Source of the DNA: Bacilli bacterium
GTDB lineage: Bacteria; Bacillota_I; Bacilli_A; RF39; UBA660
Assembly (NCBI GenBank): GCA_017625395.1
Contig: JAGALD010000070.1
Span: forward strand, 1-39,737
DNA: 39,737 nt
Direction of reading: 5' to 3'
Position 1 is the first letter of the stretch. Every line of letters starts with the position of its first letter. The notes below the pieces were generated by a model. That model made no database searches. It had not been told where the DNA came from and saw nothing but the letters and a program-made list of their open reading frames with translations. This document shows positions 9,757 to 35,612 of this stretch, piece after piece. Both the position numbers and the translations under genes were made by a program.

Positions 9757-10479
9757 ATGAAGAAAAAAGTTATAAGTATAGTAGTAACAGTATTAATTGG
9801 CATCTTAGCAATTATTGGAATGATTCAAATTAAAGAAAATAACATTGCAAAATTCAATTCTTTAGAGGATAAAAAGGAAAGTATACCTACAAAATCAGAA
9901 AATATAAAGACAGAAGATGAAATATCTGAAAATGTAGAAATTCAAAAAGAAAATGAACAAGGATCAAAGATTGAAAGTAAAGAAGAAAAAATAGATAATG
10001 ATGTAAAAGAAGAAACAAAAATAGATGAAACTAAAAAAGAAGAAGTAAAAGTTGTTGATAATTCAAATAAACAACAAACGAAGGAAAATAATAGTAGTAA
10101 TAAAAATGAAGTAGTTGAAACACCAAAACAAACTATTCAAAATACAACTACTGTTCAAAAACAAGAAGAAGTAAAAGAATCAAATAATAATCAACAACAA
10201 AATAAAACAGAAGAAGTAAAAACAGAAGTAAAACAAAATAATCCATGGGATGATTTAAATATAACAGAATATGAGTATTATAATAAACCTGCACAATCTT
10301 GGAAAAAAGTTGATTTCAGTGTAAAAAGTTATGGTACACGAACCGCAACAGAAAGTGCTTGTAGACAATATGGTGATGAGTATATTAAAACTAATACAGG
10401 TGTTTATTGGTGTATTTCTGTTGAAAGTTATAGTGGTGATTATTTAGGAGAATATTTTGATTATAAGGAGAACTCATAA
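9757..10479 (+). CDS. Single-pass surface protein with long charged stalk
   Basis: The product has 240 residues: one N-terminal transmembrane helix or uncleaved signal (about 4-22), then about 140 residues of low complexity dominated by Lys, Glu, Asn, Gln, Thr and Val. A compact C-terminal domain of about 70 residues contains two Cys (in ATESACRQYG and GVYWCISVE) that could form a disulfide. I do not recognise the domain. The stalk suggests a protein that projects through the cell wall, and as the first gene after the promoter it may act in contact with recipients or as a VirB8-like or accessory factor; that is inference. AAGGATGGTG precedes the ATG. Confidence 0.65.
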   Translation: MKKKVISIVVTVLIGILAIIGMIQIKENNIAKFNSLEDKKESIPTKSENIKTEDEISENVEIQKENEQGSKIESKEEKIDNDVKEETKIDETKKEEVKVVDNSNKQQTKENNSSNKNEVVETPKQTIQNTTTVQKQEEVKESNNNQQQNKTEEVKTEVKQNNPWDDLNITEYEYYNKPAQSWKKVDFSVKSYGTRTATESACRQYGDEYIKTNTGVYWCISVESYSGDYLGEYFDYKENS

Positions 10480-10492
10480 GAGTTCTTTTTTT
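10469..10492 (+). terminator. Terminator directly before the conjugation genes
   Basis: AGAACTC and GAGTTCT around an ATAA loop, then seven T's; the stop codon of the preceding gene is in the loop. The ribosome binding site of the next gene (GAGGTG) begins at 10493, so no promoter can fit between. Confidence 0.85.
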
Positions 10493-10502
10493 GAGGTGAA
10501 AA

Positions 10503-10622
10503 ATGAAATTTTTAATTATTATAGGATTATCAATATTAGTGTTGATAATTCTTTTTTTATATTCTGCTTGTGTAATATCAAGTAGATGTTCAAGAATGGA
10601 GGAAGAAAATGACAAAAACTAA
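10503..10622 (+). CDS. Small membrane protein, copy 1 of the YSACVIS-RCSR pair
   Basis: This 39-residue protein is almost all one hydrophobic helix (KFLIIIGLSILVLIILFL) followed by YSACVISSRCSRMEEE. The same tail is encoded at 21918-22043. Two conserved Cys sit just after the helix. GAGGTG precedes the ATG. The gene overlaps the start of the adhesin gene by 14 bases, suggesting translational coupling. It contains a terminator-like hairpin at 10524-10559. No known family is recognised; a small regulatory or assembly subunit of the transfer apparatus is possible. Confidence 0.7.
   Translation: MKFLIIIGLSILVLIILFLYSACVISSRCSRMEEENDKN
10524..10559 (+). terminator. Terminator-like hairpin inside small gene copy 1
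   Basis: GGATTATCAA (10524-10533) and TTGATAATTC (10542-10551) form a 10-bp stem with one G-U pair, followed by seven T's. It lies wholly within the coding sequence. Confidence 0.6.
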
Positions 10623-13600
10623 AAAAGCACTTGTATCTCTGGGTGTTATGTTATCAACAGTTTTTGGCTTATTTATGAATTGTAATGAAGTAAATGCAGA
10701 AAGTTACTCGGGACAAGCAATTTGGCCTAGTGAATCAATTGCAAATATATACATAAAGAAAGATAGATCTGATGGTTATACAAAATACCAACAAGCAAGA
10801 TTTATTAGAAGAAGTGAAGATAATAGATTTGTTTATTGCTTACAACCATATGCAGACATTGATAATAATTATGTTTATCAAGTAGCAAGAAGTGATTATG
10901 AAATATATCTTAATATGACAAAAGAACAATTTCAAAGAATCAATTTATATGCTTATTATGGATATGGATATGGTAATCATCAAGATCATAAGTGGTATGC
11001 TATAACTCAAGTTTTAATTTGGAGAACTGCAGATCCATCATCACAAATATATTTTACAGATACATTAAATGGATCTAGAAATGATAGTATTTTTGCTAGT
11101 GAAATGGCAGAATTAGAAGCTATGGTAAACTCACATTATGCTACACCACAATTTGATGGAATAAATGATGTGAAACTACCACTTACAAAATCTATAACTT
11201 TAAATGATAATAATAATAAATTAGGTGAATATAAAGTTGTAGGTCAAGAAAATATATCTGCTAGTATTAATGGAAATTCATTAACATTAACAGCTACAGG
11301 TATTGGTAACGCATCTGTAACATTAACAAAAACAGATACAAGATTCACAATACCACCAATAGTATATTTTAGTAATTATTCACAAAATGTATTTAGACTT
11401 GGAGCATATGATCCTTTAACTGTTAAATTTAATTTAGAAGTTATTGGTGGTAAAGTAGCAATTGAAAAAGTTGATAGTGATACATTAACAAATGTTGCTC
11501 AAGGTAATGCAACTTTAAAAGGAGCTGTTTATGGTATATTTACTGAAAATGGAACAAAGATTGCAGAAATAACAACAGATGCAAATGGATATGCTAAAAG
11601 TGATTATTTACCAAGTATTGGTAAGTTATATGTACAAGAATTAAAAGCAAGTCAAGGATATAAATTAGATCCAAATAAATATTATGTTGATGTAACAAGT
11701 AACAATTTAGAACCTACAATACAAGTAAAAGAAGAAGTTATTGAAGGAAAAATTAAAATCAATAAAGTTGATAGTGAAACTAATGCTTGTAAAGCACAAG
11801 GTGAAGCTACACTTGTTGGTGCAAAATACAAAGTATTAAATTCTAAAGGTGAAGTAGTTGATACTTTAACTATAGGAGAAGATTGTTCCGCAACTAGTAA
11901 AAATTTACCTTATGGTAATTATAAAGTTGTAGAAGAAAAAAGTTCAGTAGGATATTATATAGATAATACTCAATATAATGTTTCTATAAATGAAGAAAAA
12001 ACATTTTCAGTAACAAGTAAAGAAAATGTTATTAAAGGAAAAATCAAAGTTACTAAAGTAGATAGTGAAAATAATTCATGTACAGCGCAAGGACAAGCTG
12101 TCTTAAAAGGTGCTATCTATGAAATATTAGATTTAAAAGGTAATGTAGTTGATACAATTACTATTGATGAAAATTGTAGTGCTACATCTAAATATCTACC
12201 ATATGGGCGTTATAAGATAAAAGAAAAAACATCTTCAAAAGGTTATTATTTAGATACAAATATTTATAGTGCAAATATAGTAGAAAATAATATTATTAAT
12301 ATAACTTCAAAAGAACAAGTTATAAAAAATTATATTAGTATATTAAAACAATATGATTACGTAGATGGAACTACACAATTTTTAAATGCAGAATCAAATA
12401 TTACATTTGAAATTTATTATCCAAATGGTAATAAGTTTGGAGAAGTAACAACAGATAAAAATGGGTATGCTACATTAGATATACCATATGGTGTATGGAA
12501 ATTTCATCAAGTAAATACTACTACTGGATTTGAAAAAATATATGATTTTTATATTACAGTAGATGAAAATAGTAATTTAAAACAATACTATAATGTATTA
12601 AATAATAAAATATCAGCATATTTACAAGTATTTAAAACTGATAGTGAAACAGGTAAGACAATAGCACTAGTAGATACAACATTTAAAATATTAAATGTAG
12701 ATACAAATCAATATGTTAGTCAATATGTTGGTGGAAAAGTATATGATGAATTTAAAACTGATGAAACAGGTAAATTCATCACTTATTTAAAACTTGAAGC
12801 AGGTAATTATAAATTAATTGAAATAAGTTCACCATCTGGATATTTAATTGATAAAAATGGTTTACCATTTAGTATAGGAAATGATACACATTATAACTAT
12901 ACAACATATGGAGCATTTGTAACTGTATATTTTAAAGATGCTCCAATTAAAGGACAAGTGGAAGTAAATAAAACAGGTGAAAAATTTGTTGTAAACAATG
13001 GTACATTTAAATATGAAGAAATAAAACTTGATGGTGTAGTATTTAATGTTTATGCGGATGAAGATATTAAAACTTCTGACGGACAACATATATATTACAA
13101 CAATGGTGATTTAGTTGATGTTATTACAACAGATACAAATGGATATGCAATTAGTAAAAAATTACCACTTGGAAAATATTATCTAGTTGAGACAAAAACA
13201 AAAGACGATCACGTTTTAATAGATAAAAAATATTATTTTGAATTAACAGAAGAAAATAATACTACAGCAATTGTATATGATTTATATACTGCTCATAATT
13301 CATTAAAAAAGGGTGATTTAGAATTTACGAAAACAGATTTAGTAGATGGAGAAGTTATACCAAATGTTGAAATAAGCATATATACAGAAAAAGATGAACT
13401 TGTTTTCAATGGTAAAACAGATTCAAATGGAAAAATAGTAATTAAAGATTTATATATTGGAAAATATTATTTAATTGAAAAAAATCCAGCAACTGGATAT
13501 ATTTTAAATGATGAAAAGATTTTCTTTGAAATAAAAAATAATGAAATTGTAAAAGCACACATGACTAATAAGAAAATTACATCAACATTGAAATTAACAA

Positions 13601-14229: not shown

Positions 14230-14270
14230 AGAATAAAAAGGTTTACATATATATAAAAGGGGGAATATAA

Positions 14271-14663
14271 ATGAATAGAATAAATAGATTTTGTATTTTA
14301 GGGAGATTAAAAGAAGATCCTAAATATAAAGAATTAGAAAGTGGAAAGAAGGTTGCTAACATATGTGTAGTAACTGAAAGAGAATATAAAAATAAAGATG
14401 GAGAAACTATTACAGATTTTTTAAATTTTACTTTATGGGATAAACAAGCAGAAAATATTAATAAGATTAGTAAAAAAGGTGATATTATCTGCTTAGATGG
14501 AATAATGACTACAAAAAAAGTAGAATTAACAGAAGGTGCAAGATATTTCATTGAACCTGTAGTAGAAAAATATAGACATATAGCTAGTGTAAAAAATATG
14601 GATCATGATGATAAAGAAGTAAATAAATCTGTAGAATTAGAATCTGAAGAAATGGAAAAATAA
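14271..14663 (+). CDS. ssb: Single-stranded DNA-binding protein
   Basis: This 130-residue protein has the OB-fold pattern of bacterial SSB: an N-terminal NRINRFCILGRLKEDPKYKE, then KVANICVVTER, DFLNFTLWDKQAENI and KKGDIICLDGIM. The C-terminus is acidic (ESEEMEK) but lacks the usual DDDIPF tip, so interaction with host repair proteins may be altered. It is shorter than the usual 160-180 residue chromosomal form. It would coat transferred single-stranded DNA in the donor or recipient. AAAAGGGGG lies 7 bases before the ATG. Confidence 0.85.
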   Translation: MNRINRFCILGRLKEDPKYKELESGKKVANICVVTEREYKNKDGETITDFLNFTLWDKQAENINKISKKGDIICLDGIMTTKKVELTEGARYFIEPVVEKYRHIASVKNMDHDDKEVNKSVELESEEMEK

Positions 14664-14664
14664 T

Positions 14665-15246
14665 ATGATTGATAAGAAAAAAAATTATACTTTAAAAGAA
14701 TTATTAGAACTATTTAATATGTATAATATAGATTTTAAATTTTACGGAAATAATAAAAATGGCGATTTAGAAATATATATGAAAACGGATATAGATAAAT
14801 TATCCGTTTTTGTATGCCATAATAAATTAACAAAACATGAGTATTTAAAACTAACAGAAGAAGAAGCGAAAGAATTGAAATTTAAATTTGATAGAGAGGT
14901 GTTAGATGTGGATATGGATATAATTGCTATTGTTTTAAGAACTAGTGATGTTAATATACCATCTGCTAAGTATTCTTTAAAATCATTAGATGCTTTAACA
15001 AAAGAACAAGATTTGGAAGAAAGAGAGAATAAAGACGGATTAGAAGATGGTATTTCATTTATTATAGTTGATAATAATACAGCTTGTACTCTATATGATG
15101 GTTTTTATATTTTTAATAAAGATAATAAAGGTTTATTAAATAATTTAGAATTACAATATGAACAAGAAGAAGATATATTAATTAAAAATAATTTAAAAAT
15201 GATATTAGATTACTGTAATAATTTATCAAATGAAAAAACTATATAA
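14665..15246 (+). CDS. Hypothetical acidic protein of the transfer operon
   Basis: This 193-residue protein has no signal peptide or membrane helix and begins one base after the SSB stop codon. An N-terminal portion (about 1-80) looks like a small alpha/beta domain; the rest is acidic. No family is recognised. The start at 14665 has only a weak ribosome binding site, so translation is probably coupled to ssb. It contains a perfect 10-bp terminator-like hairpin. Confidence 0.65.
   Translation: MIDKKKNYTLKELLELFNMYNIDFKFYGNNKNGDLEIYMKTDIDKLSVFVCHNKLTKHEYLKLTEEEAKELKFKFDREVLDVDMDIIAIVLRTSDVNIPSAKYSLKSLDALTKEQDLEERENKDGLEDGISFIIVDNNTACTLYDGFYIFNKDNKGLLNNLELQYEQEEDILIKNNLKMILDYCNNLSNEKTI
14782..14811 (+). 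terminator. Terminator-like hairpin inside a coding sequence
   Basis: AAAACGGATA (14782-14791) and TATCCGTTTT (14801-14810) form a perfect 10-bp stem with a 9-base loop. The A and T tracts could make it bidirectional. It is wholly inside the hypothetical gene after ssb. Confidence 0.65.
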
Positions 15247-15259
15247 AAGGGGGATACAA

Positions 15260-15622
15260 ATGAAAAAAAAGGGGATTATTAATAAAGTTAAAGAAAAGGC
15301 ATCAAAATTATATATGATGCTTTTTTCAGTATGTGCATTATTTTTAACAACAACTAATGTACATGCAGTACAAAAAATTGAAGGTGGAAACGTTACTATT
15401 GATAGTCTAGGAACAATTATAAAAAATTTAGCAACAAAAGTACAAGTATTAGGAATTGTAATATCTTTTATTGCATTAGTAGTTTTTGTTATTCAGTTTA
15501 TTATAGGTGATGATGAAACAAAACAAAGAAGAAAGAAAACAATTCTTTATACACTAGGTGGCGTTGGACTATTAATTTTAGTTCCTAGTATAATTAACTT
15601 TGTAATTGATACATTAGGGTAG
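15260..15622 (+). CDS. VirB2-like pilin/channel subunit
   Basis: This 120-residue protein has a signal peptide (ending TTNVHAV, about residue 34) and two hydrophobic helices (about 57-79 and 93-114) separated by a short basic, charged loop (GDDETKQRRKK). This is the layout of TrbC/VirB2-like subunits found beside VirB6 in Gram-positive conjugation loci. The ATG at 15230 lies inside the preceding gene; the ATG at 15260 follows AAAAGGGGG at proper distance and is preferred. A terminator-like hairpin lies in the signal-peptide region. Confidence 0.7.
   Translation: MKKKGIINKVKEKASKLYMMLFSVCALFLTTTNVHAVQKIEGGNVTIDSLGTIIKNLATKVQVLGIVISFIALVVFVIQFIIGDDETKQRRKKTILYTLGGVGLLILVPSIINFVIDTLG
15294..15326 (+). 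terminator. Terminator-like hairpin in the VirB2-like gene
   Basis: GCATCA (15299-15304) and TGATGC (15315-15320), extended by a G-U and A-T pairs, are followed by six T's. It lies about 35 bases into the coding sequence. Confidence 0.6.
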
Positions 15623-15631
15623 GAGCTAATT

Positions 15632-17307: not shown

Positions 17308-17580
17308 ATGTATATAACATTACAAAGTATAAAAAGAAATCTAGGATTATTTAATTTAGAATTTGAAGATATCATGATTGGGGGATTGTTTTTATTTATA
17401 TTTACAATCCTCTTTTTATTAAAATTTTATACATTAGCAATTATAATTGTTTCATTTGGACTACTAGCATTAGTACCAATGGATTTTAGTAAATGTAATA
17501 GAATGTATAAATTATTTATTTTGTTTGCTAAATATTTATTTAGTGATAAAAAATACTATTATTACAAAAGTAATAATTAG
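17308..17580 (+). CDS. VirB3/PrgI-like membrane protein
   Basis: This 90-residue protein has two adjacent transmembrane helices (about 27-44 and 45-63) and the N-terminal pattern QSIKRNLGLFNLEFEDIMIG. It sits directly before the VirB4-like ATPase gene, the usual place of PrgI/VirB3-like subunits. GGGGTG lies 5 bases before the ATG. Confidence 0.7.
   Translation: MYITLQSIKRNLGLFNLEFEDIMIGGLFLFIFTILFLLKFYTLAIIIVSFGLLALVPMDFSKCNRMYKLFILFAKYLFSDKKYYYYKSNN
17381..17417 (+). terminator. Terminator-like hairpin in the VirB3-like gene
   Basis: GGGGATTGT (17381-17389) and ACAATCCTC (17404-17412), with one G-U pair, are followed by TTTTT. It is inside the coding sequence. Confidence 0.6.
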
Positions 17581-17591: not shown

Positions 17592-20066
17592 ACGAAAAAG
17601 GATAGAAAAGAAGAAAGATTAAAGAAGAAAAAGAAGAAAGAAGAAAAGACAGTAAATAAAGCTAAATTAAAAAAGAAGGAAACTTATATATCAAAATCTA
17701 TGCTTAAAAAGAAGATGCAAAATTCTCAAGTGTTTTCTAATATACAAGAAATAAATGATGATGGATTAATTAAGTTAAAATCAAATCAAGTAGCTTTATT
17801 TTATAAAGTAAATCCTATTGATTTATCATTAACAAATGATAATGAACAAAATTTATTTTTTCATACATTATCAAAAATATATAGATTACCTATTGTAATT
17901 AAAGCATATAAATTTGATGAAAAAATTAATTTAAATATTAATAAAGAAAATATTGAAAATTTAATTGAAAAACATTATACAGATGAGGTAAGAAAAAACT
18001 TACTTTTAAATAACTATGGATTTATTGAAACAATAGAAGAACAAAATATGACATCTGCTAGTTCGTATTATTTTGCTATAATAGCAAAGAATAAAGAAGA
18101 ACTTGAAAAGTCAAAAGAAGAATTTGAAAAAACTTGTGATGCAATTATTCCAAGATTAGATATAGAATTAGTAGATAATAAAAAATGGTTAATTAAAATT
18201 TTATGTACCATGTATTATTCTAAATTTAATTTAGATCAAATAATGTATTATGATTTTGTAGATTTGATGGCACCAATGAAATTATCTGAGTATCCATCAC
18301 ATCTTAAAGTTGATGATGAAGAAATTCAGATGGTATCAATTAAAAACTATCCATTATTTATTGAACATGGATTTTTAGATAGAATTATAAATTTACCAAA
18401 TGTAAAAGCATCAGTAACAATAAAAAATACAATCGAACAATCAAAATTATTGAATGTATTAAATAGTAGTTTTAAAGCTGTATTAGCAGATTATAATTCA
18501 TCAAAGAATTTAAGTGATGTTACTGAAATGCAATCTTTAATGAATAACTATAAGTTACTTATAGAACAAATATCATCAAATGATGAAAAAATAAAAGAAG
18601 TATCTATAGTATTAGCTATTAGTGGAACTAAAAAGCAAAGAGAAGAAATATTAAAGGAAATTAAGACAAATGCAGAACTATATCAAATTAAAGTTGACGT
18701 ACCAAATTTAAGACAAATGCAAGCATGGCAAGCATATGATGTTACAGATAAAGGATTATCAGATTATGCAATGTATTTACCAACATCAACATTAGCTTCT
18801 GCTTTTTTCTTTACTGAAAATTATCATAATGATTCAACAGGGTGGTTAATTGGTGAAGATTGTAATTATGGTTTACCAACATTCTTTGATCAATTTGCTT
18901 TGACTAAAAGTAGAACAGGCCATAATATGAGTGTCATTGGTACAACAGGTTCAGGAAAAAGTTTCTTACTTAAATTATTAATAACTAATGAATTTGCTAG
19001 AGGTACAAAATTATTCTTATTTGATATAGAAAATGAACTTGAAAAATTAACTAAAAGATGTGGTGGAGAATATATAGATTTATCCAGCAAGAGTTTAATT
19101 AATCCACTTCAAATAAGATATGTATCAACAGATGATGATTCTGAAACATCCATATTAGGTAAACATTTAGGGTTTTTAGAAAACTTTTTTATAACAGCAT
19201 TTGAAGATATATCAGAAAAAGAATTAGTTGTACTATTAGATATAGTAGAGAAGTTTTATAAAACTAGAGGTATAACTAAAAAAACAACCTTAGAAGAATT
19301 TGAAAAAATGAGTGCTAAGGATTATCCTATCTTTTCTGATTTATATGCTTATTTATTAGAACAACAAAAAAATACTAAAACAAAAGAATTAGAAAGAATC
19401 TTAGTAAATATAGAAGTATTATTAAAAAGAATGGTTACTGGACAAGATGGTAATTTATATAATGGTATAACAACTATTGATTTAAGTAATAATTTAGTTG
19501 TTTTTAATTTACAAGAATTACTATTTAATTCAAGTAGAAGATTAATAAATACTCAAATGATAAATCTACTTACATATTTAAGTAATGAGATAGTAGATAA
19601 TAAAAAGAAAAATGATTCAAAAAATGAAAAACAAAATATGTTAATTGTTGTAGATGAATTTCATTATTTTATAGATGAGGACAATCCAACATTGTTAAAA
19701 TACTTTGGACAAATGGCAAGACGTTTAAGAAAGTATAATGCAGGTATAGTTGTAGCAACACAACAACCATCTGATCTAACAAGTAGTATGGGTGTTTTAA
19801 GACACGCATCTAGTTTATTTGGAAATTGTCAGTATCAAATTACAGGTATGTTAAAAGATAATGATTTACAAGCGATAGAAAAAATATATGCTAATACACC
19901 ATTAACAGAAACACAAAAAAGTTTTTTAGGTAAATGTGGGCAAGGACAATTTTTAGTTAATATAACTAATAAGAATAGACTTAGAATAAATGTTTTTGCG
20001 ACACCTGTTCAACTATATTATATGGGTGAATCAGATGAATTACCTATTGAAACAAGTGAAGTATAA
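17592..20066 (+). CDS. VirB4-like conjugation ATPase, apparent ACG start
   Basis: This is a VirB4/TraE-type ATPase that powers transfer-channel assembly. Counting from the first ATG (17700, 788 residues), Walker A GTTGSGKS is at about 414-421 and Walker B VVDEFHYF has its Asp at 652. RRLRKYNAGIVVATQQ follows, as in VirB4. The ATG at 17700 has no ribosome binding site, whereas the frame is open upstream and an in-frame ACG at 17592 sits 5 bases after GGGGTG, the same spacing as the ATG of the previous gene. I therefore place the start at 17592, which adds 36 Lys-rich residues. If wrong, the start is 17700. The last base overlaps the next ATG. Confidence 0.85.
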   Translation, partial: TKKDRKEERLKKKKKKEEKTVNKAKLKKKETYISKSMLKKKMQNSQVFSNIQEINDDGLIKLKSNQVALFYKVNPIDLSLTNDNEQNLFFHTLSKIYRLPIVIKAYKFDEKINLNINKENIENLIEKHYTDEVRKNLLLNNYGFIETIEEQNMTSASSYYFAIIAKNKEELEKSKEEFEKTCDAIIPRLDIELVDNKKWLIKILCTMYYSKFNLDQIMYYDFVDLMAPMKLSEYPSHLKVDDEEIQMVSIKNYPLFIEHGFLDRIINLPNVKASVTIKNTIEQSKLLNVLNSSFKAVLADYNSSKNLSDVTEMQSLMNNYKLLIEQISSNDEKIKEVSIVLAISGTKKQREEILKEIKTNAELYQIKVDVPNLRQMQAWQAYDVTDKGLSDYAMYLPTSTLASAFFFTENYHNDSTGWLIGEDCNYGLPTFFDQFALTKSRTGHNMSVIGTTGSGKSFLLKLLITNEFARGTKLFLFDIENELEKLTKRCGGEYIDLSSKSLINPLQIRYVSTDDDSETSILGKHLGFLENFFITAFEDISEKELVVLLDIVEKFYKTRGITKKTTLEEFEKMSAKDYPIFSDLYAYLLEQQKNTKTKELERILVNIEVLLKRMVTGQDGNLYNGITTIDLSNNLVVFNLQELLFNSSRRLINTQMINLLTYLSNEIVDNKKKNDSKNEKQNMLIVVDEFHYFIDEDNPTLLKYFGQMARRLRKYNAGIVVATQQPSDLTSSMGVLRHASSLFGNCQYQITGMLKDNDLQAIEKIYANTPLTETQKSFLGKCGQGQFLVNITNKNRLRINVFATPVQLYYMGESDELPIETSEV

Positions 20067-21070
20067 TGGGTAAATTTTTTAAAGTAAAATTTGGTGTAAT
20101 TATTATTGCTAGTTGTTCATTATTAGTATTTATCTTTATTGTCGTAGCAGCAGTAGCTGGTGGTAGTGCTGGTGAAGCGTATATGCAAGAACAAGTAAAT
20201 CAAATGAGGATTAATTCAAAAGTAATTAATAGTCAGTTATATGCTACAAAGTATAGAAGTATATTGAATCAAAATATGCTATCACATGGATACGTGACAT
20301 TAGAAAGATTAGTTTTTTATTTACAGAGAAAACATAATCAATTAGATGTATCAACATTAAGTTTAGAAGAATGGAAGAAAGCATATTTTGAAAATGTTAA
20401 TTCAGAAGAAAAGCAAATGGTTCCTATTAAAACTATATGTAAAAAAATAGCATCTGATAATACATTTCCTACTATGACGATTCAAAATGGAACAAATGCT
20501 GATGGTGTTGCAATAGATGTAATTGATTTGTGTCATGTTGATGGTGTGGACGTTGCAACAAGTAATGATTATAATGAATATTATTTACCACTTAATTATG
20601 CTTTTGCACTTCGTACACCATTTACTATAACATCATTTGTATTTGAAAGTAGAGATATTGATTTGGATTTATCAGAAGAACAATTGAATAGAACAAATTA
20701 TCATAGTGGTTGGGATTTTGCAGTTCCTATTGGTACAAAATTTTATAGTATATGTGATGGGACTATTTCAAAAATAGTAAACACACAAGCGAATGATTTG
20801 TCATATAATCAATCTAAAAATAGTGTTGGTAATTATGTAGAAGTTAAATGCAATAACAATTTAACAGCACAATATTATCACATTAAATATAAAAGTACAC
20901 CTTTTGTATTACAACCAGGGACACCAGTTAAAGCTGGTGATTTTTTAGGTCTTACATCTACAACCGGAACATCAACAGGTCCACATTTACATTTGGGTTT
21001 AAAGGATGAGTCAGGCAAAAATTTAGATGTAATGTCTTATATAGATATTAAAACATATTATGGAAGCTAG
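20066..21070 (+). CDS. M23-family peptidoglycan hydrolase of the transfer system
   Basis: This 334-residue protein has one N-terminal transmembrane helix (about 9-31), a helical stalk-like region, and a C-terminal LytM/M23 metallopeptidase domain with zinc ligands H213 and D217 (YHSGWDFAVP) and HLHLGL (307-309). It would cut the peptide cross-links of the cell wall to make room for the transfer channel. Many Gram-positive systems use a two-domain enzyme with a lytic transglycosylase plus NlpC/P60; no transglycosylase domain is seen here. The ATG overlaps the last base of the VirB4-like stop codon. Hairpins lie inside and at the end of the gene. Confidence 0.85.
   Translation: MGKFFKVKFGVIIIASCSLLVFIFIVVAAVAGGSAGEAYMQEQVNQMRINSKVINSQLYATKYRSILNQNMLSHGYVTLERLVFYLQRKHNQLDVSTLSLEEWKKAYFENVNSEEKQMVPIKTICKKIASDNTFPTMTIQNGTNADGVAIDVIDLCHVDGVDVATSNDYNEYYLPLNYAFALRTPFTITSFVFESRDIDLDLSEEQLNRTNYHSGWDFAVPIGTKFYSICDGTISKIVNTQANDLSYNQSKNSVGNYVEVKCNNNLTAQYYHIKYKSTPFVLQPGTPVKAGDFLGLTSTTGTSTGPHLHLGLKDESGKNLDVMSYIDIKTYYGS
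20922..20946 (+). terminator. Terminator-like hairpin inside the M23 gene
   Basis: CACCAG (20922-20927) and CTGGTG (20934-20939), a GC-rich perfect stem, are followed by ATTTTTT. The T tract is only on the coding strand. Confidence 0.6.
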
Positions 21071-21084
21071 AAATAGCTTCCTTT
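21062..21084 (+). terminator. Terminator overlapping the M23 stop codon
   Basis: GGAAGCTA (21062-21069), a GAAA tetraloop and TAGCTTCC (21074-21081), then TTTATTATTT. The next gene starts at 21108 behind AAAAGGGGG with no clear promoter between. Confidence 0.75.
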
Positions 21085-21107: not shown

Positions 21108-21332
21108 ATGGTCTGGAAAGATAATATAGATAAAATATTAAAAGAAGAAAGAAAAGAATGGGGTATGAGTAGAAAAAAATTAGCACGATTAGCACATGTA
21201 GATGAAGATTTAATAGAAGATATTGAAACTAAAAAAATAACTAATCCAGATTTTTATGATATGTTAAGTATATGTGATGTTTTGCAGACAAGCGTTTTTT
21301 TCTATATACTTGAGGAAGAAAAAAATGATTAA
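21108..21332 (+). CDS. Small XRE-family helix-turn-helix protein
   Basis: This 74-residue single-domain protein has SRKKLARLAHVDEDLIEDIETKK in the helix-turn-helix position, followed by DMLSICDVLQTSV, as in XRE/Cro regulators. An upstream in-frame ATG (21060) lies in the terminator hairpin of the preceding gene; the ATG at 21108 follows AAAAGGGGG and is preferred. It probably regulates element genes. It overlaps the next start by 8 bases. Confidence 0.75.
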   Translation: MVWKDNIDKILKEERKEWGMSRKKLARLAHVDEDLIEDIETKKITNPDFYDMLSICDVLQTSVFFYILEEEKND

Positions 21333-21802: not shown

Positions 21803-21910
21803 ATAATAGGTGAAGTGCTGTATTCACCTATTCACTTTACTATCTTAAGTGAATTATTGGTTTTGAACGAAAAATAGTCGCAGTATGGGGCTATTTTTCA
21901 ATAGTGGAGG
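21803..21910 (+). promoter_or_regulatory. Structured 5' leader with three stem-loops
   Basis: ATAGGTGAA pairs with TTCACCTAT (about 21806-21831). ATTCACTT pairs with AAGTGAAT just after, sharing bases with the first stem, so the two compete. AAAAATAG (21870-21877) pairs with CTATTTTT (21891-21898) around a loop holding GCAGTATGGGG, a terminator-like stem. The ribosome binding site TGGAGG of the next gene follows. This looks like an attenuator or antitermination leader; no known riboswitch is recognised. Confidence 0.5.
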
Positions 21911-21917
21911 CACGAAT

Positions 21918-22043
21918 ATGTTAGCTGTATTTATATTAGTTACTTGTTTTTTCTTATCTATATGTTATAGTGCTTGCGTTATATCAGGTAGATGTTCAAG
22001 ATTAGAAGAAGAAATGTATATTGAAAGAAAATACGTTAGGTAA
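21918..22043 (+). CDS. Small membrane protein, copy 2 of the YSACVIS-RCSR pair
   Basis: This 41-residue protein has a hydrophobic helix (LAVFILVTCFFLSIC) followed by YSACVISGRCSRLEEEM, the same tail as the small protein at 10503. TGGAGG lies 7 bases before the ATG. Like copy 1, it stands first in its operon after terminator-like structure and overlaps the start of the following gene (here by 23 bases). Confidence 0.7.
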   Translation: MLAVFILVTCFFLSICYSACVISGRCSRLEEEMYIERKYVR

Positions 22044-22725
22044 AGATAGAATTAAAGATATAATAAATCAATTAGGTTATAAATATACAAATAGAAAAGT
22101 ATTTGAAGATTTTGTTTTAATATCTACATATTCAATTCAGAATTCTATTATAAAGGATGAAAATATAGAAGATAAATATAATAAAATAGTTCAAAAATAT
22201 ACGGACGAAGAAGTAAGTCAATTTGCAAAGATGTTAGCAATTTTAATAGAAGAATATAAATTTAATGATTGTAAGGATGATATATTAGGAAGTGTATTTG
22301 AAGAATTAAATATATCAAATAGTAAAAGAGGTCAATTTTTTACACCAATGAATGTATCAAATATGATGGCAGCATTAACATATAAAAAAGAAGAAGTAGA
22401 AAACGTAATACAGAAGAAAGATTATTTAACTGTACAAGATCCAGCGTGTGGTAGTGGTAGAATGTTATATTCTACTTTTTTTTGTTTGAAAAATATGGAT
22501 GTAGATGTTTCTGATAAAGTATATTTTGAAGGTGCAGATATAGATGAACTATGTTGCGGCATGACATATATTCAATTATCTATATTAGGTGCTAGTGCTG
22601 TTATTTATCATAAAGATTCATTATCTAATGAAGAATATAATAAATTTGTTACACCAAAATTCTTATTGAATAATGATATGATTAATTATTTAACTAAAAA
22701 GGGGGATGACTATGGACTTGAATAA
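22021..22725 (+). CDS. N6-adenine methyltransferase-like protein lacking the catalytic motif
   Basis: The 234-residue product resembles the first half of the HsdM-type N6 methyltransferase domain: GQFFTP at about 104, the AdoMet-binding motif DPACGSGR at 140-147, then GADIDELCCGMTYIQLS and HKDSL. In the family the catalytic NPPY/F motif follows soon after; here the protein ends without it. It can therefore bind AdoMet in principle but probably not methylate DNA, unless another subunit supplies the motif. The start is TTG at 22021, inside the preceding small gene, with a stop codon just upstream in frame. A terminator-like hairpin lies in the motif I codons. Confidence 0.7.
   Translation: MKENTLGKDRIKDIINQLGYKYTNRKVFEDFVLISTYSIQNSIIKDENIEDKYNKIVQKYTDEEVSQFAKMLAILIEEYKFNDCKDDILGSVFEELNISNSKRGQFFTPMNVSNMMAALTYKKEEVENVIQKKDYLTVQDPACGSGRMLYSTFFCLKNMDVDVSDKVYFEGADIDELCCGMTYIQLSILGASAVIYHKDSLSNEEYNKFVTPKFLLNNDMINYLTKKGDDYGLE
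22457..22483 (+). terminator. Terminator-like hairpin inside the methyltransferase-like gene
   Basis: GTAGAAT (22457-22463) and ATTCTAC (22469-22475) with a 5-base loop are followed by eight T's. Strongly terminator-like, on the coding strand only. Confidence 0.65.
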
Positions 22726-27652: not shown

Positions 27653-27750
27653 GTCTTTAAAGTGTATGCAGTTTTTTACATAGAGGAGACAAACATAGTA
27701 CACTTGTTATTGCAGTTTAATTTCAGTGTATTATATTAAATGCAGTACGG
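27653..27750 (+). promoter_or_regulatory. Leader RNA with mutually exclusive pairings
   Basis: TACACT (27699-27704) can pair with AGTGTA at 27661-27666 or with AGTGTA at 27725-27730; the second pairing extends to nine pairs with one G-U. TGCAGT occurs three times (from 27667, 27711 and 27741). An intrinsic terminator follows. This fits a conditional leader or an antitermination RNA. No known family is recognised. Confidence 0.45.
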
Positions 27751-27786
27751 GAATAAGTTTCTTTTGAAATTTATTCTCTTTTTTTT
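27751..27786 (+). terminator. Terminator ending the leader RNA
   Basis: GAATAAGTTTC (27751-27761) and GAAATTTATTC (27766-27776) form an 11-bp stem with one G-U pair and a TTTT loop, followed by TCTTTTTTTT. The accessory operon starts about 60 bases later without a second promoter that I can see. Confidence 0.8.
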
Positions 27787-27848: not shown

Positions 27849-28709
27849 GTGAATAAAAAAGATATTAGGTGGGTAGATTTTATTACAGGTTCTAATACAA
27901 TTACTATAACAAATGAAAATGAATTTAATAAATTTAAAGAATTTTTAAATTGTTTAGGGCTTGATATATTATTAAATAATTATAATAATTTTTCAGATTG
28001 GCAACAACTTTCAAAAATTAATAAGAATGATCCAAATTGTATTATTTTTGAATATCAACCAAATAAGGGATTAACTTTTGGATATACTAAGGAATCATCA
28101 AAAAAATGGTATGGCATAGAATCTTATACTACAGAAGTATTAGATTCTTTTTTTGATAATAATAAATTATATGATGGAAAATATAAAACTAAAAAAGTAA
28201 AAATATTAGGTACTTGGATTACAGATTATGATGATATTGCATGTAATGCTATTTTATATCAGAATGGAAAAGAAGTAGCCAATGTTATGGATAGTTTTGA
28301 AGAAACAACGGTAAGATACATTTATGGTGATAGTCATACAGAATTAACAGATGAATTGATAAATAAAAGTTTAGAAAAAATAATTAATGAGTCATTTGAA
28401 AATTATTTAGAATTACCTAAAATTAGTGAATGTTCAAAATTATTACAAGAAATTTATGATAGAGTTTGTGATTCAGTTGCTTCAATGTGTCATGTTGATA
28501 GTATTGATTGGATAAGTTGGAAAGATTGCTATAATTTTACAGATGATGATATAGAACAATTAAAAGAAGAAATAAAAAGATATAAATTAAATGAAGAAAT
28601 TGGTATAGATGATTGTGGATATAAAATTGTTGGATATGAGAATTTACAATTTGCATTTAATGATGATAGAAATTTAGCTAAAGAAAATCAAAATAGTTTA
28701 GAAATATAA
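27849..28709 (+). CDS. Hypothetical protein, first gene of the accessory block
   Basis: The product has 286 residues and no signal or membrane segment. The start is GTG, 13 bases after AAAAGGGGG, a rather long spacing. It is acidic, with an N-terminal part rich in aromatic residues and several Cys in the C-terminal third (ECSKLL, RVCDSV, MCHVDS, DCYNF, DCGYKI). I do not recognise a family. As the first gene behind a regulated leader it is a candidate for early expression. Confidence 0.6.
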   Translation: MNKKDIRWVDFITGSNTITITNENEFNKFKEFLNCLGLDILLNNYNNFSDWQQLSKINKNDPNCIIFEYQPNKGLTFGYTKESSKKWYGIESYTTEVLDSFFDNNKLYDGKYKTKKVKILGTWITDYDDIACNAILYQNGKEVANVMDSFEETTVRYIYGDSHTELTDELINKSLEKIINESFENYLELPKISECSKLLQEIYDRVCDSVASMCHVDSIDWISWKDCYNFTDDDIEQLKEEIKRYKLNEEIGIDDCGYKIVGYENLQFAFNDDRNLAKENQNSLEI

Positions 28710-28723
28710 AAGGGGGAATATAT

Positions 28724-29681: not shown

Positions 29682-29689
29682 ATAAATAT

Positions 29690-31004: not shown

Positions 31005-31289
31005 ATGGAAAGTTTAATTAAAATTAGATCTTCTTTAAATAAAATGAATAATGAATTTGAAAATGGCAATTCACCATATTACTATATTAAATATTATGAT
31101 GGGTCAAAGATGTATAAAAATAATGATGATGAAGTTATTATATTTGAATGTTTAATCAGACATAATGAAATAGGAGAAAAAACAATAGAGCGTTCAACAC
31201 CATATACTTTTAAATCATTAGAATCTACTTTAGAAAAGTTATGCAAAGAATATGAAGAAAAAATAGATGAAAATATTATAGAAATGTAG
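31005..31289 (+). CDS. Hypothetical small accessory protein
   Basis: This 94-residue protein starts directly after the previous stop codon with no ribosome binding site of its own, so it relies on coupling. It is predicted to be a small mixed alpha/beta protein. No family is recognised. Confidence 0.55.
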   Translation: MESLIKIRSSLNKMNNEFENGNSPYYYIKYYDGSKMYKNNDDEVIIFECLIRHNEIGEKTIERSTPYTFKSLESTLEKLCKEYEEKIDENIIEM

Positions 31290-31297
31290 GTGAGAAT

Positions 31298-31627
31298 ATG
31301 AAAAATATTGATATTTTAAAAAAGTTAAAAGAAAGTTATGATAATTTATCAGATATAATTTTAAATTCTGATTATGAAATTGGCTCTGATAATGTTGAAG
31401 TATTAAATAACAGCTTAAGTACAATGTCTACGCTATATGAAAATGTATGGGATAAAATTAAAGCTGATAGTGATGAAAGAGAAGAATTAAAGACTGAATG
31501 TAAATGTCCTCATTGTGAAAGGAAAACAGTAGTAAGTGATTTAATTGATTATTCATATCTATGTACAGACTGTGATGAAAATTTTTATTATTGTGAATGT
31601 ATTAAAGAAAATAATATGGAGCTATAA
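31298..31627 (+). CDS. Small zinc-ribbon-like protein
   Basis: This 109-residue protein has a helical N-terminal part of about 65 residues and a C-terminal Cys cluster: CKCPHCERK, then YLCTDCDENF and YYCEC. Two CxxC pairs about 20 residues apart are typical of a zinc ribbon. It may bind nucleic acid or another protein. TAGGTGAG precedes the ATG. Confidence 0.6.
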   Translation: MKNIDILKKLKESYDNLSDIILNSDYEIGSDNVEVLNNSLSTMSTLYENVWDKIKADSDEREELKTECKCPHCERKTVVSDLIDYSYLCTDCDENFYYCECIKENNMEL

Positions 31628-31629
31628 TA

Positions 31630-32361
31630 ATGAAACCAATTGTAGAATATGAAGATAAAAAATTGTATTTACAAAAAGGAAGCTATCCAAATAATAGGAT
31701 AGCTTTTTTACTTGTAGATGAGGATGATGAGTTGTGGGATGATCTATCTATTAATTTACCTGATAAGTTTGTTATGGAAAATGAATTTTTTATAAATCCT
31801 AGAATTCCAAATGATTTAAGAGAAAAATTATTTGAAACAGATGTATTTATGAATTTATTTAGAACAGAAGATAATTATTATAATTCTGCATATGTAAATA
31901 AAAATTTATTAAAGAATTATATTGATGATAAATATTATATTGAAATATGGGAAACAGAGTGGCACAGAGATGCTGGTGATGGATTTATGTATGTATATAG
32001 TTATGAAGATTTTGATACAGCACTAAAACATGTAAGAAAGTTAAAAGATGATTATAATTATGCTGCTATTGAAATTATTAACAATAATAATACATTGTAT
32101 TGTTTTGCAGATAATGAAGAAACATTTTATTTTGATTCAGATAAAATTGTATGTGTTGATGAAAAATTATCAAATGATTATGTAGACAAGTGGAATGAAC
32201 ATAAAGAATTACCTATAAAAGAAGAAAAAATATATTGTAAAAGAAATGGTACTTTTGTTGGTATAGATAATTCATCAGGAAATTGTTGGGTTGAAGAATT
32301 TGAAACTGAAAAAGAAGTTCAAGAATGGTTATTAGGAAAAGAAAAAGAATATGAAATATAA
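31630..32361 (+). CDS. DUF4313-like accessory protein
   Basis: This 243-residue protein's N-terminal domain (about 5-75: LYLQKGSYPNNRIAFLLVDE, then LSINLPDKFVMENEFF and INPRIPNDL) resembles DUF4313, a family seen on ICEs and plasmids. The rest is an acidic alpha/beta region with EIWETEWHRDAGDGFMYVYS, and a C-terminal segment that I do not recognise. A strong terminator-like hairpin lies near the 5' end of the gene. Confidence 0.55.
   Translation: MKPIVEYEDKKLYLQKGSYPNNRIAFLLVDEDDELWDDLSINLPDKFVMENEFFINPRIPNDLREKLFETDVFMNLFRTEDNYYNSAYVNKNLLKNYIDDKYYIEIWETEWHRDAGDGFMYVYSYEDFDTALKHVRKLKDDYNYAAIEIINNNNTLYCFADNEETFYFDSDKIVCVDEKLSNDYVDKWNEHKELPIKEEKIYCKRNGTFVGIDNSSGNCWVEEFETEKEVQEWLLGKEKEYEI
31680..31709 (+). 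terminator. Terminator-like hairpin inside the DUF4313-like gene
   Basis: AAGCTATCC (31680-31688) and GGATAGCTT (31697-31705) form a perfect 9-bp stem with an 8-base loop and a T run to 31709. It is one of the best intragenic hairpins, about 50 bases into the coding sequence. Confidence 0.75.
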
Positions 32362-32375
32362 AAGGGGGAATTAAT

Positions 32376-33302
32376 ATTAAATTTAGGGGAAAAATAAAGG
32401 ATATTAATCATATTGTAATATCAGATCCTACATATAAAAAAGATGTATGGTGTAGATATGAAAAAGATGGATTAAATAAAAAAGACTGGATAGTTGATTT
32501 GAATATATATGAAGTAGTAACAAAGGTTGATAAATATAATATTGAAGGAATCGAATTTTCATTATTATTAAAGGAAAACGAACATTCATGTAATTTTGAA
32601 GATGAAGATAATTTATTATATCCACCTGATACAAATATTGAAAAATTTGATATAGGTATGGATACAGCTTGCGTAGCACTTGGAATAAATGATAGTGCAA
32701 ATGAAATAATTAAATCACGAGATGAGTGGCAACCTGATTGTTCTATTAGGACAGGTACAGATGGTTATTTTGGGCATGTTTATGAAGGCAAAAAAAATAA
32801 TGAATTATCTTTCATATGGATAAACGGTTACTTTGATAAAGATATGATAAATGAAAATGAATTATTTGATTATTTAACAAAACAATTTGAAATAACTGAA
32901 TTAGTAAGAGAAGATATAGATTTATCTTGTGAATATGGAATGCTTGAAAAAGGTGATAAGGTAGAATTATCTACATGTGCTATTAATAATAATTTTGGTA
33001 CAATAAAAATTAGAAATTCTAATTATAAAAGTTTAACAGAAGGACAAAAATTAACAATAGAAAATCCAGATGGTACACTAGAAACAACGACATTAAAATC
33101 TCATGATAAATTAGTTGATAGTCCTATTCAAGTTGAAATTATAGAAGGTTTTTATGATTATGAAACAGGAAATCATTATAAAGGTAGATTACTTAATGAA
33201 AATTTATTAAAAGAGTGGTCTGATACAACAATAGTAAATTTTTCAGAATTTGATATTGTAAAATTATTAGAAAAGACATCAACTAATGAAATAGAAAAAT
33301 AA
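32376..33302 (+). CDS. Hypothetical accessory protein, apparent ATT start
   Basis: The conventional start would be TTG at 32499, which has no ribosome binding site. The frame is open upstream, and an in-frame ATT at 32376 lies 7 bases after AAAAGGGGG, the exact spacing used by neighbouring genes. This gives 308 residues, and the added 41 include INHIVISDPTYKKDVWCRYE, which looks like folded-domain sequence. Later motifs are DTACVALGI and GYFGHVYEG. I do not recognise a family. It ends directly before the coupling protein gene. Confidence 0.6.
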   Translation: MKFRGKIKDINHIVISDPTYKKDVWCRYEKDGLNKKDWIVDLNIYEVVTKVDKYNIEGIEFSLLLKENEHSCNFEDEDNLLYPPDTNIEKFDIGMDTACVALGINDSANEIIKSRDEWQPDCSIRTGTDGYFGHVYEGKKNNELSFIWINGYFDKDMINENELFDYLTKQFEITELVREDIDLSCEYGMLEKGDKVELSTCAINNNFGTIKIRNSNYKSLTEGQKLTIENPDGTLETTTLKSHDKLVDSPIQVEIIEGFYDYETGNHYKGRLLNENLLKEWSDTTIVNFSEFDIVKLLEKTSTNEIEK

Positions 33303-35612
33303 ATGGATAATTTAAAATTTGATTCTTTATCTGGTGTTGAACTAATAATTTTAATATTAGTTCTTGCTATCATATTTTTTATTTTATATTTAGAGCCAAG
33401 ATTAAGTAAGAGTAAGTTAAAAAATAATAAGGAACATGGAAGTAGTAAATTTGCTGACATGAAAGAAATAAAAAAAACATTTGATAAAGAAAATATTAAT
33501 AACTTAGAAAAAGCAGGATTCCCAGTATGGTATTCAAAAAAGAATGGAAAGATAGAAGATGTGTATTTTGATAATAAAAGTCCACATCATTTATTGATTG
33601 GTTCAACTGGATCTGGTAAATCTGTTACTGTAGTTTTACCAGAATGTTTAATGTTTGCACAAGCAAAAGAAAAACATAGTGTAGTAGTAACAGATCCAAA
33701 AGGTGAAATATTTAGAAAAACTGGTAGTGTATTTGAAGCAAATGGATATAAAGTTTTAACATTAGATTTTAGAAATCCAACAAAATCAAATAGATTAAAT
33801 ATAATGCAACCAATTATAAAGGAATGGAAAGAGTATTGTTCTAGTCATAAAGCAATGCTCTTTTTAATTTCTCATTTTTTAAAACATAGTAAAGTAAATA
33901 TTGAAAAATTGATGGAAGATGGTGAATATTTGAAAAAGATAAAATCAAATTATTACTTAGATGACTATTTAATAAATGTAATAAAGGATAATATAAGAGA
34001 AATAGAAGGACATTTAAATTCTAAAAAAATGTATAATACAGATATATTAAATAAATATATAGATATTGAAGGAGATTTGAAAAAATTTTTATTATCAAAA
34101 GGTTATAATTATATATTTAATAAAATATTAGAATTACAAAATAAAAGTTCTAGCCATGAAGCTGAAACAAATAGATTAGTAATTGGACTTGCTGATTTAA
34201 TTTTTGTTGATGATTCATCAGGAGATAAATTTTGGATTAATAGTGCTAAACAATTATTTATAGGTATAACAGGTGTTTTTTTAGAAGATTATAGATTAGG
34301 ATTAATTAATGAAAATCAGATAAATATATCAAGTGTAAAAAAATTTCAAAATTCATCATTAATAAAAGAAAATCAAATGTATCTTCAAAGAAATATAAAT
34401 AGTAGAAGATATGGATGTTTGTCTAAAGATTATCTAACATCTATTTTATCTGCAGCTGAAAATACATATAAATCTATAACAGCAGTATTTGGTGAAAAAA
34501 TGGCTATATTTGATGATTTAAATGTAGAAAATATTACAAGTATAAGTGAATTTGAAATAACTGAAATAGGAAGTAAACCTACAGCATTATTTTTAATAGT
34601 ACCAGATGAAGATAGAGCATACTATCAATTAGTAACCATCATTGTTGGAATGATGACAAACGTTTTAACTAAGTTTGCAAATTTAGAAGAAAATAAAGGT
34701 GCACTACCTGTAATGGTAGAATGGATATTAGATGAGTTTTGTAATGCACCACGTTGGAATATAGAAACACAAATAACAGTTGCACGTTCCAGAAGAATGC
34801 GTTATCAAATGTTTATTCAATCTTTTAGTCAGTTAGATCAAGTATATGGAAAAGAAGTTGCAGATATAATAAAAGATAATGCTGCACTAACATATTTAAA
34901 AACTAATTCAGTAGAAGTAGCAGAAGTAATACAAAAGAAGTTAGGTCGTGCTACTATTGAAACATCTTCATTAAGTCAAAGTACAGATCCAATGAAAATT
35001 GGTGGAAATAAAACATTATCTCTAATGGGAAAAGATTTATTAACAGCAACTGAAATAATTGCTTTAAAATATAAAACAATAATATTTCCTACAATATCTA
35101 ATCCTATATTTAGAGATACATATATGTATAGTGATATATACCCACAATTTACAAATGTTGAAGAATTATATAGAAAAGTACAAGTGTTAAAAAGAATAAC
35201 AAGTAATTATTATACTGTTGAAAATTTAAAAAGTAAGTATGATGAATTAAATAAAAAACATATTGAAAGTGCTGCAAAACAATTTCAACAAAGTATAAAT
35301 AAAAATATGAAGAAAAGTATAGATCAAATAACAAAAGAATTTACTAAAGAAGAAAGTAAGTCATTAACGCAAATAGAAATATTTGTAAATGATTTGATTT
35401 CAAAACTAACAATTAAAAATAATGTAGTAGAACAATCATTAAATGATGATGGCTCATATTCAATAACTACAAATAATTGTTTAAATTTAAATGATATTAA
35501 TAAAATGGAAAAGTATATCAAAGAAGATTATACTTTTTCTTTATCTAGAAATATAAATAAGCAAATTACAAAAATATTAATATGGAATAATAAAATGGAG
35601 AAAAAAATATGA
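33303..35612 (+). CDS. VirD4/TraG-type coupling protein
   Basis: This 769-residue ATPase brings the relaxase-DNA complex to the transfer channel. It has one N-terminal transmembrane helix (about 8-28, VELIILILVLAIIFFILYLE), Walker A GSTGSGKS at 100-107 and Walker B WILDEFCNAP with D477 and E478. TraG-type motifs follow (RSRRMRYQMFIQSFSQLDQ). An insertion of about 100 residues (around 180-290) and a long C-terminal tail extend the usual core. It starts immediately after the preceding stop codon and overlaps the sortase start by 4 bases. Confidence 0.88.
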   Translation: MDNLKFDSLSGVELIILILVLAIIFFILYLEPRLSKSKLKNNKEHGSSKFADMKEIKKTFDKENINNLEKAGFPVWYSKKNGKIEDVYFDNKSPHHLLIGSTGSGKSVTVVLPECLMFAQAKEKHSVVVTDPKGEIFRKTGSVFEANGYKVLTLDFRNPTKSNRLNIMQPIIKEWKEYCSSHKAMLFLISHFLKHSKVNIEKLMEDGEYLKKIKSNYYLDDYLINVIKDNIREIEGHLNSKKMYNTDILNKYIDIEGDLKKFLLSKGYNYIFNKILELQNKSSSHEAETNRLVIGLADLIFVDDSSGDKFWINSAKQLFIGITGVFLEDYRLGLINENQINISSVKKFQNSSLIKENQMYLQRNINSRRYGCLSKDYLTSILSAAENTYKSITAVFGEKMAIFDDLNVENITSISEFEITEIGSKPTALFLIVPDEDRAYYQLVTIIVGMMTNVLTKFANLEENKGALPVMVEWILDEFCNAPRWNIETQITVARSRRMRYQMFIQSFSQLDQVYGKEVADIIKDNAALTYLKTNSVEVAEVIQKKLGRATIETSSLSQSTDPMKIGGNKTLSLMGKDLLTATEIIALKYKTIIFPTISNPIFRDTYMYSDIYPQFTNVEELYRKVQVLKRITSNYYTVENLKSKYDELNKKHIESAAKQFQQSINKNMKKSIDQITKEFTKEESKSLTQIEIFVNDLISKLTIKNNVVEQSLNDDGSYSITTNNCLNLNDINKMEKYIKEDYTFSLSRNINKQITKILIWNNKMEKKI
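33827..33865 (+). terminator. Terminator-like hairpin inside the coupling protein gene
   Basis: GAGTATTG (33831-33838) and CAATGCTC (33853-33860), with one G-U pair and flanking A-T pairs, are followed by TTTTT. Confidence 0.55.

Follow-up and report, generated by a model that had tools for sequence, protein, structure and literature searches.

The window analysed here, 39,737 nucleotides (nt) in length, is contig C43 of a 110-contig, 1.49 Mb assembly of an uncultured Bacilli bacterium (GCA_017625395.1; completeness 93%). From ~8.2 kb onward gene direction is uniform, and this run of transfer genes encodes an ArpU-like regulator, a surface protein of the SpaA/thioester-domain type, SSB, the pilin of a type IV secretion system (T4SS), a VirB4 ATPase, an M23 peptidase, methylase-like and primase-like proteins, a VirD4 coupling protein, a sortase and a large serine recombinase. 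With its T4SS genes (TraG P-loop/VirB4, T4SS pilin and a CD1115-family VirD4) and the recombinase at 36551-38140, the window looks like an integrative conjugative element. Its VirB4 matches the Mbov_0397 model at a score under the cut-off of that model, and the Pfam matches of the 40 window proteins include no relaxase family, in a general scan in which the ends of the element were not sought. Ten related VirD4 loci were found, mostly in metagenome-assembled genomes labelled uncultured Bacilli, with one labelled Tenericutes; many of the isolate names start with 'Lapin', which suggests rabbit samples. The genome itself (G000) holds several related, divergent conjugative elements, with VirB4 proteins 43-47% identical on contigs C82 and C108 and relatives of VirD4 on C82, C98 and C108. 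No relative of the window VirB4 was confirmed in IMG/VR, and the 1112 plasmid records with a VirD4 relative all lie below 60% identity, none spanning 80% of the query.

Computation shows that terminator-like sites are in excess within the transfer genes, that they are oriented in the sense direction, that the excess depends on a U tract and that the sites are in part conserved. Sites were scored as a stem plus a U tract, with a threshold of predicted folding energy (dG) ≤ -9 and a U score ≥ 2.5, and the 31 coding sequences of the window (25,893 nt) were set against 300 codon shuffles and 300 shuffles of a stricter kind, in which third bases are exchanged with dinucleotides preserved. Seven sense sites were seen (that at 21062 included), where 0.58 are expected from the codon shuffle and 2.43 from the stricter one, and none of the 300 shuffles of either kind reached seven. 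At dG ≤ -7 the count is 12, against 1.38 and 3.44 (0/300). The antisense strand of the 31 genes has no site at dG ≤ -9; at the loosest threshold, dG ≤ -6, antisense sites are also raised (8 seen, 3.3 expected, 2/300 shuffles). When gene starts are refined by their ribosome-binding sites six sense sites remain, against 0.43 expected and a largest value of 2 in 30 shuffles. Divided by the sequence that follows them, the hairpins fall into a U-tract class (7 against 1.1) and classes with fewer Us (4 against 2.7 and 4 against 2.3); since the latter are at chance, the excess is specific to U-tract hairpins. A preliminary description of this DNA had proposed that terminator-like hairpins are scattered through these genes and that synonymous shuffling should fail to reproduce them, as proved to be the case.

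The excess belongs to the elements. Host genes of the same genome have 5 sites where 3.8 are expected in 281 kb, and with refined starts, seven stretches from other genomes included, 5 against 5.7 in 395 kb; the stretch L093, with two matches in neighbouring genes, counts as host in the 281-kb figure and is omitted from the refined-start one. Contigs of related elements, which take in flanking genes, give with refined starts 23 sites against 4.7 in the same subfamily (21 contigs; largest of 30 shuffles 10) and 38 against 6.5 in a second subfamily (18 contigs; largest of 30 shuffles 10). On the 21 same-subfamily contigs the excess is found both in genes homologous to window genes (18 against 3.05) and in the remaining genes (13 against 3.3). 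All-N contigs (L067, L075-L077, L087-L090) were left out beforehand, as was any gene containing over 10 N; L072, which is partly masked and carries sortase and adhesin-like genes, was placed in the second-subfamily set and not with the host; G000C98 (1 site) was omitted from the refined-start counts, and exact duplicate genes or hairpins were removed from these and from the placement counts given below. Chance or composition as the source of the excess is ruled out by the two shuffles, the antisense control, the control without U tracts and the host genes. The preliminary description had found no equivalents in the genes at 1-8608. None was found here either, a zero which is uninformative because only 0.17 sites are expected in 8 kb.

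The hairpins might instead arise from coding alone: where a protein is hydrophobic, its many Phe, Leu and Ile residues call for T-rich codons, and with these come chance hairpins devoid of function. Several sites do lie in hydrophobic segments (17380, 10523 and those of sortase genes), and the encoded proteins make the hairpins at 20922 and 22456 unremarkable. This explanation is nevertheless improbable: codon shuffles which preserve the protein yield 12 times fewer sites, host genes taken as a whole, with membrane proteins not separated out, show no excess, and hairpins recur across species beyond what synonymous resampling predicts.

The individual sites are collected in the table. All nine stem-loops listed in the preliminary description are present and fold as hairpins, six of them strong, with dG between -10 and -13, and the other three moderate, between -7.2 and -7.8. 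Its statement that they lie inside or at the very ends of sense genes is to be amended for 21062, which is probably not intragenic: it overlaps a stop codon, and the most likely start of the next gene, preceded by a ribosome-binding site, is 21108. Two further sites above threshold, 28118-28148 and 17485-17532, were absent from that list. The open reading frame (ORF) 10503-10622, host to the site at 10523, lies outside the 31-gene set and has relatives elsewhere. At convergent gene ends of the host a hairpin is found in 20 of 22 cases, 13 of which pass the threshold; since their median dG is -10.5, the intragenic sites have roughly the strength of ordinary terminators in this AT-rich genome.

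Table. Features of the operon head and terminator-like sites in the transfer genes of the window (positions in the 39,737-nt stretch)
Feature	Position	Strand	Evidence
Strong promoter-like site heading the transfer operon (TTGACA, 16, TAAAAT)	8773..8800	+	11/12 consensus matches
Possible leader peptide, stop codon overlapping the 5' arm of the leader hairpin	8833..8862	+	putative, read by eye
Leader hairpin 1, 9-bp stem, loop ~29, then CTTTTTTT	8861..8907	+	by eye and predicted fold; loop exceeds scorer limit
Leader terminator 2, directly before the ArpU-like gene, within 57-codon ORF 8930-9100	9045..9089	+	dG -11.9, loop 15
ArpU-like regulator gene, probable start ATG 9114	9105..9584	+	phrog_248 transcriptional activator, E 1.5e-7
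Intergenic terminator 3' of the ArpU-like gene	9603..9622	+	dG -5.3, U 4.0
Pseudoknot-like motif, conserved, GAGTTTATAGGGANCTCAT...AAAAAACTA, 5' of a ribosome-binding site	9628..9659	+	cross-genome pattern search and alignment
Terminator overlapping the end of gene 9757-10479	10468..10487	+	dG -7.6
Terminator in small membrane-peptide ORF 10503-10622	10523..10552	+	dG -11.8, U 4.8; synonymous resampling p 0.007
Moderate intragenic terminator, gene 14665-15246, position kept	14784..14808	+	dG -7.7; own resampling p 0.08
Moderate intragenic terminator, pilin gene 15230-15622	15297..15322	+	dG -7.8
Intragenic terminator, gene 17308-17580	17380..17413	+	dG -11.4, loop of 14; resampling p 0.0025
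Intragenic terminator, gene 17308-17580	17485..17532	+	dG -9.4
Hairpin with T tract displaced by one A, M23 peptidase gene 20066-21070	20922..20939	+	dG -10.0; resampling p 0.14
Terminator between genes 20066-21070 and 21108-21332	21062..21081	+	dG -11.2; overlaps stop codon of 20066-21070
Hairpin plus T8, methylase-like gene 22021-22725	22456..22476	+	dG -7.2; resampling p 0.06
Intergenic terminator within the gene run	27749..27778	+	dG -11.6, U 5.1
Intragenic terminator, gene 27849-28709	28118..28148	+	dG -11.1, U 4.4
Intragenic terminator, 49 nt into gene 31630-32361	31679..31706	+	dG -11.6
Intragenic terminator, VirD4 gene 33303-35612, position kept	33829..33862	+	dG -13.0; resampling p 0.005

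The presence of intergenic hairpins within the run (9603, 21062, 27749) would also suit a role in stabilising or processing RNA 3' ends, so as to set protein ratios within the operon, with no termination at all. Against this very unlikely explanation stand the restriction of the enrichment to hairpins with a U tract and the position of several of them inside, not after, coding sequences.

Conservation is partial. For eight window sites with aligned homologues, 9 of the 87 homologue sites have a hairpin of dG ≤ -7 over the corresponding codons, against 0.77 expected by synonymous resampling, a count in which close pairs make the homologues not fully independent and which takes in eight rows, without a match, for 28118 and 31679, where the alignments are unreliable, the window row having been lost through gaps. 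The VirD4 site is kept in five of 27 homologues, with proteins 57-67% identical (dG -11.1 to -15.4). The site of gene 14665 is kept in three of seven homologues (G172, G336 and G121), and a G-C pair of its stem, formed by two synonymous positions (ACG..TCC), is replaced by A-U (ACA..TCT) in the element of G172. The sortase gene of the second subfamily has a hairpin near its start, in a hydrophobic N-terminal segment; the site is found in 12 of 28 homologues scanned, 11 of the 12 being among 16 second-subfamily rows, with resampling p values of 0.001-0.004 which apply to matches found by scanning, in a set where G333 and G200 are identical at the site and where, in two rows or more, the gene is truncated at the end of its stretch. 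No such site is present in the sortase gene of the window. So the density of terminators is common to the elements, whilst their positions turn over and few older sites remain.

With a probability of roughly two in three, the long transfer operon carries selected intrinsic terminators which cut off stray transcription, and is expressed only when polymerase has been made termination-resistant after leaving the promoter. Selection on the element, and not a property of the host, would maintain the intrinsic-terminator sequences, several of them intragenic. Their most likely effect is to halt stray transcription that enters the transfer genes, and polymerase starting at the operon promoter near 8773-8800 would become resistant and pass the internal terminators. 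We infer both the termination in the cell and the passage of a modified polymerase through these sites. The best-supported explanation is transcription guarded by terminators, of the kind described for pLS20 and Tn916. An antitermination system is described for the conjugation operon of pLS20 (PMC8955417), and in the conjugative element Tn916 polymerase passes internal terminators only if it has started at the proper promoter, through canT, a region of ~450 nt that is most likely a cis RNA (PMC11658703) and is likened here by description.

The comparison with pLS20 is the closer one. Its conjugation operon was put through the same test and yields 7 sense sites against 1.15, and 0 antisense against 1.14, bearing out the earlier statement that operons of this type contain internal terminators. 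Both operons are long, one-directional and rich in internal intrinsic terminators, both show a sense-only intragenic excess with sites near gene starts, and both have a gene for a thioester-domain surface protein early on. They differ in that stable sense hairpins with few Us are in excess in pLS20 (NC_015148, L094; 24 against 8.2 in 15 shuffles) and not in the window, and in that the window VirB4 matches Mbov_0397, albeit under its cut-off. The head of the window operon is also unlike that of pLS20, with its leader terminator, ArpU-like gene and pseudoknot-like motif, in a host without Rho over the family cut-off.

The sites tend to lie early in genes. With unrefined starts, 34 of 69 distinct sites on element contigs fall within the first 130 nt (14.7 expected). 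With refined starts the second subfamily has 18 early sites against 1.9 (20 against 4.6 in the rest of the gene) and the first subfamily 7 against 0.93 (16 against 3.8). This placement is what the main rival explanation would account for, namely that the terminators are gated by translation and no modified polymerase is involved: a trailing ribosome would hold the hairpins open, so that only promptly translated transcripts are completed, which in a Rho-less host would substitute for Rho-dependent polarity. Indeed, Rho is over its family cut-off in none of 15 genomes, the host's own included (the control is over cut-off in 8 of 14 known genomes); matches below the cut-off occur in 8 of the 15, that in the own genome scoring 19.5 bits over 53 positions. 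Leader ORFs, moreover, appear by eye to end at or traverse leader terminators. However, pLS20, for all its antitermination system (PMC8955417), has its sites equally early, with 6 of 7 in the first 130 nt (1.65 expected), and Bacillota are classed as runaway-transcription bacteria (PMC13323073). Wrong start codons may also cause part of the early bias, and the few host sites are early too (3 of 5 against 1.0, refined starts). Translation gating is unlikely, even as the foremost alternative to terminator-guarded transcription. The lack of a Rho match may bear on that preferred explanation as well: a host without Rho would halt stray transcripts chiefly by the intrinsic terminators borne by the element, and this may explain their selection.

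A plausible operon head, recognised from sequence, comprises the leader terminator, the ArpU-like gene and the pseudoknot-like motif, and would be the best place in which to seek the modifying factor. In the G172, G336, G435 and G121 elements, too, a TTGACA-type site precedes the first gene, and in the window and four related elements a leader ORF with its stop at the 5' arm of a terminator was read by eye. The ArpU-like protein matches TIGR01637 with an E value of 4.8e-4, under the cut-off of that model. A terminator lies within 50 nt upstream of the start in 15 of 16 ArpU-like genes; among other genes preceded by a gap of 100 nt or more, the figure is 46 of 353; this comparison uses a threshold of dG -6 and loops up to 26, the hairpins being often long-looped, and 13 of the 16 genes were preselected because the motif follows them, close relatives among them (L213/L214; G172/G336). 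Such an arrangement recalls AlpA of Pseudomonas aeruginosa and lambda Q, regulators from phage-like systems with intrinsic terminators directly upstream of the genes they control (PMC7969949). Unlike these, ArpU-like proteins are annotated as activators, and an action on elongating polymerase is only putative. Among ten more stretches upstream of second-subfamily elements, a profile search found an ArpU-like gene in L249, L254, L256 and L257, the last also with the motif, and none in L248, L250, L251, L252, L253 and L255, of which L248, L250, L251 and L252 extend past the homologue of gene 9757. The case for the ArpU-like gene as a universal antiterminator is weakened, and its product cannot be the common factor, because only some second-subfamily elements carry the gene near the operon head.

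The motif that follows the ArpU-like gene has the layout GAGTTTATAGGGANCTCAT(1-4)AAAAAACTA, with a helix AUGAG/CUCAU, the loop UUUAUAGGGAN, an A-rich stretch and CUA. Its first part, with at most one mismatch, occurs at 18 places in 16 of 291 family genomes (L205-L222), one of which (L217) looks due to chance; a reversed control pattern occurs at none. The upstream gene is ArpU-like by BLAST in 14 of the 18 places; 3 of these 14 matches are queries meeting their own sequence, and L213, L214 and L218 hardly differ from one another. An alignment of 16 sequences gives modest support for helix 1, which pairs in 92.5% of cells. One of its pairs is found as U-A, C-G and U-G, with C-G in place of U-A in 3 of the 16 sequences, two of which are closely related. 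Of 500 shuffles, 11 reached the covariation score and 341 the number of covarying pairs; helix 2 is invariant and hence outside this test. Genes downstream of the motif have 7 sites (two near-identical) against 1.75 in ten stretches (0/100 shuffles), and those of seven control stretches 2 against 1.78. A short peptide frame follows the motif in the window and several elements, as read by eye; it often ends Lys-Ile-Pro-stop (C82, G121, L205, L207, L209, L222), though not in the window. This context recalls ribosome arrest at termination, as in TnaC.

By sequence alone the motif resembles preQ1-I riboswitches in architecture, and may form an H-type pseudoknot with an A-rich loop as they do. The specificity cytosine expected before the P1 3' strand (PMC11625349) is not a constant feature, the position taking all four bases among the 16 sequences. 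Rfam gave no match at gathering thresholds across the whole window. Around 9585-9760 a search with Rfam 15 at E ≤ 10 returned only three unrelated weak matches, and the 14 motif loci searched gave a T-box match and a weak plastid match, both away from the motif; no preQ1 match appeared in either search. IMG/VR holds no exact match to the motif.

Known read-through factors were also sought. The first six annotated + strand genes of pLS20 (2564-6336), one of which we take to be ConAn1, had no phmmer match at E ≤ 1 among the ORFs of five elements, a search that a diverged relative could escape. ConAn1 was set aside as the modifying factor on this result, no relative of the six early genes having been found in the five elements. 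Processive antitermination by LoaP, a NusG paralogue, is on record in Bacillota (PMC12691694); the genome of the window differs, its 93%-complete assembly containing one NusG match, and because that match is single there is no sign of a paralogue of the LoaP type. Within these searches, the modifying factor would not be a relative of ConAn1 or LoaP. The earlier suggestion that the element follows the same logic as pLS20 is supported in part, by the sense-biased, U-tract-specific and element-specific excess; the searches gave no ConAn1 relative, second NusG or Rfam match to go with it.

Several observations weigh against terminator-guarded transcription with a modified polymerase. No antitermination factor was identified by the Rfam scan of the window, the NusG search or the phmmer search with pLS20 genes. 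The proposal of scoring both strands with a terminator predictor had a divided outcome: the stem-plus-U scorer finds its sites of dG ≤ -9 on the sense strand, but of the nine a generic scanner (loop ≤ 8, at least 3 G-C pairs) passes no more than two in the + direction (20922 and 21062), with 31680 on the - strand, so the terminator claim depends on longer loops and A-U-rich stems. Resampling explains 20922 and 22456 largely by protein sequence, 20922 being so judged because of its p value. Persistence in homologous elements, on which the earlier proposal also leaned, holds for some sites, and most are not kept in place: the VirD4 site is occupied in only 5 of 27 homologues and 17380 in 1 of 13 (G121), and the sites in the pilin (15230; 0/7), M23 peptidase (20066; 0/23) and methylase-like (22021; 0/2) genes in none. 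Site counts vary by contig, with zero in L012, L014, L016, L017, G443C40 and G037C6. Close pairs among the homologues, as already mentioned, and ORF calling by a simple longest-ORF rule count on the same side.

It is tempting to regard the operon head as a new processive antitermination switch, which would make transfer an all-or-none decision in Rho-less Bacilli, but this must be considered doubtful. Polymerase from 8773-8800 would meet the leader terminators ahead of the ArpU-like gene; either the ArpU-like protein, acting in the manner of Q, or the pseudoknot-like RNA, acting like put or canT, would load onto it; and the loaded polymerase would pass the leader terminators and all the intragenic ones, in a self-reinforcing manner.

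Silencing by internal terminators is already known from other conjugative elements, and no recognisable read-through system of a known kind was found in the sequences searched here. The present evidence would extend terminator-guarded conjugation operons to a T4SS element family of uncultured Bacilli in which Rho was not found, with an operon head that differs from the antitermination systems considered. Selection on stops within coding sequence is indicated by the codon shuffles and by the sites kept in place, and an excess of intragenic terminators may serve as a simple signature for spotting operons under antitermination control. Among the best-ranked literature matches listed there was nothing on such elements in this group, which is not proof of absence from print.

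Two further observations concern individual hairpins. A family of tiny membrane peptides with a tail resembling SACxxSSRCSRxEE is represented at 10503-10622 and 21885-22043 in the window and at G172C1 31300 and G336C14 11945. The copies at 10503 (dG -11.8), in G172 (-4.7) and in G336 (-4.7) overlap terminator-like hairpins, and that at 21885 does not. On contig C82, a membrane-protein gene (L055 15170-16159) contains a very strong intragenic terminator-like hairpin, with a dG of -17.3 and a U score of 4.7.

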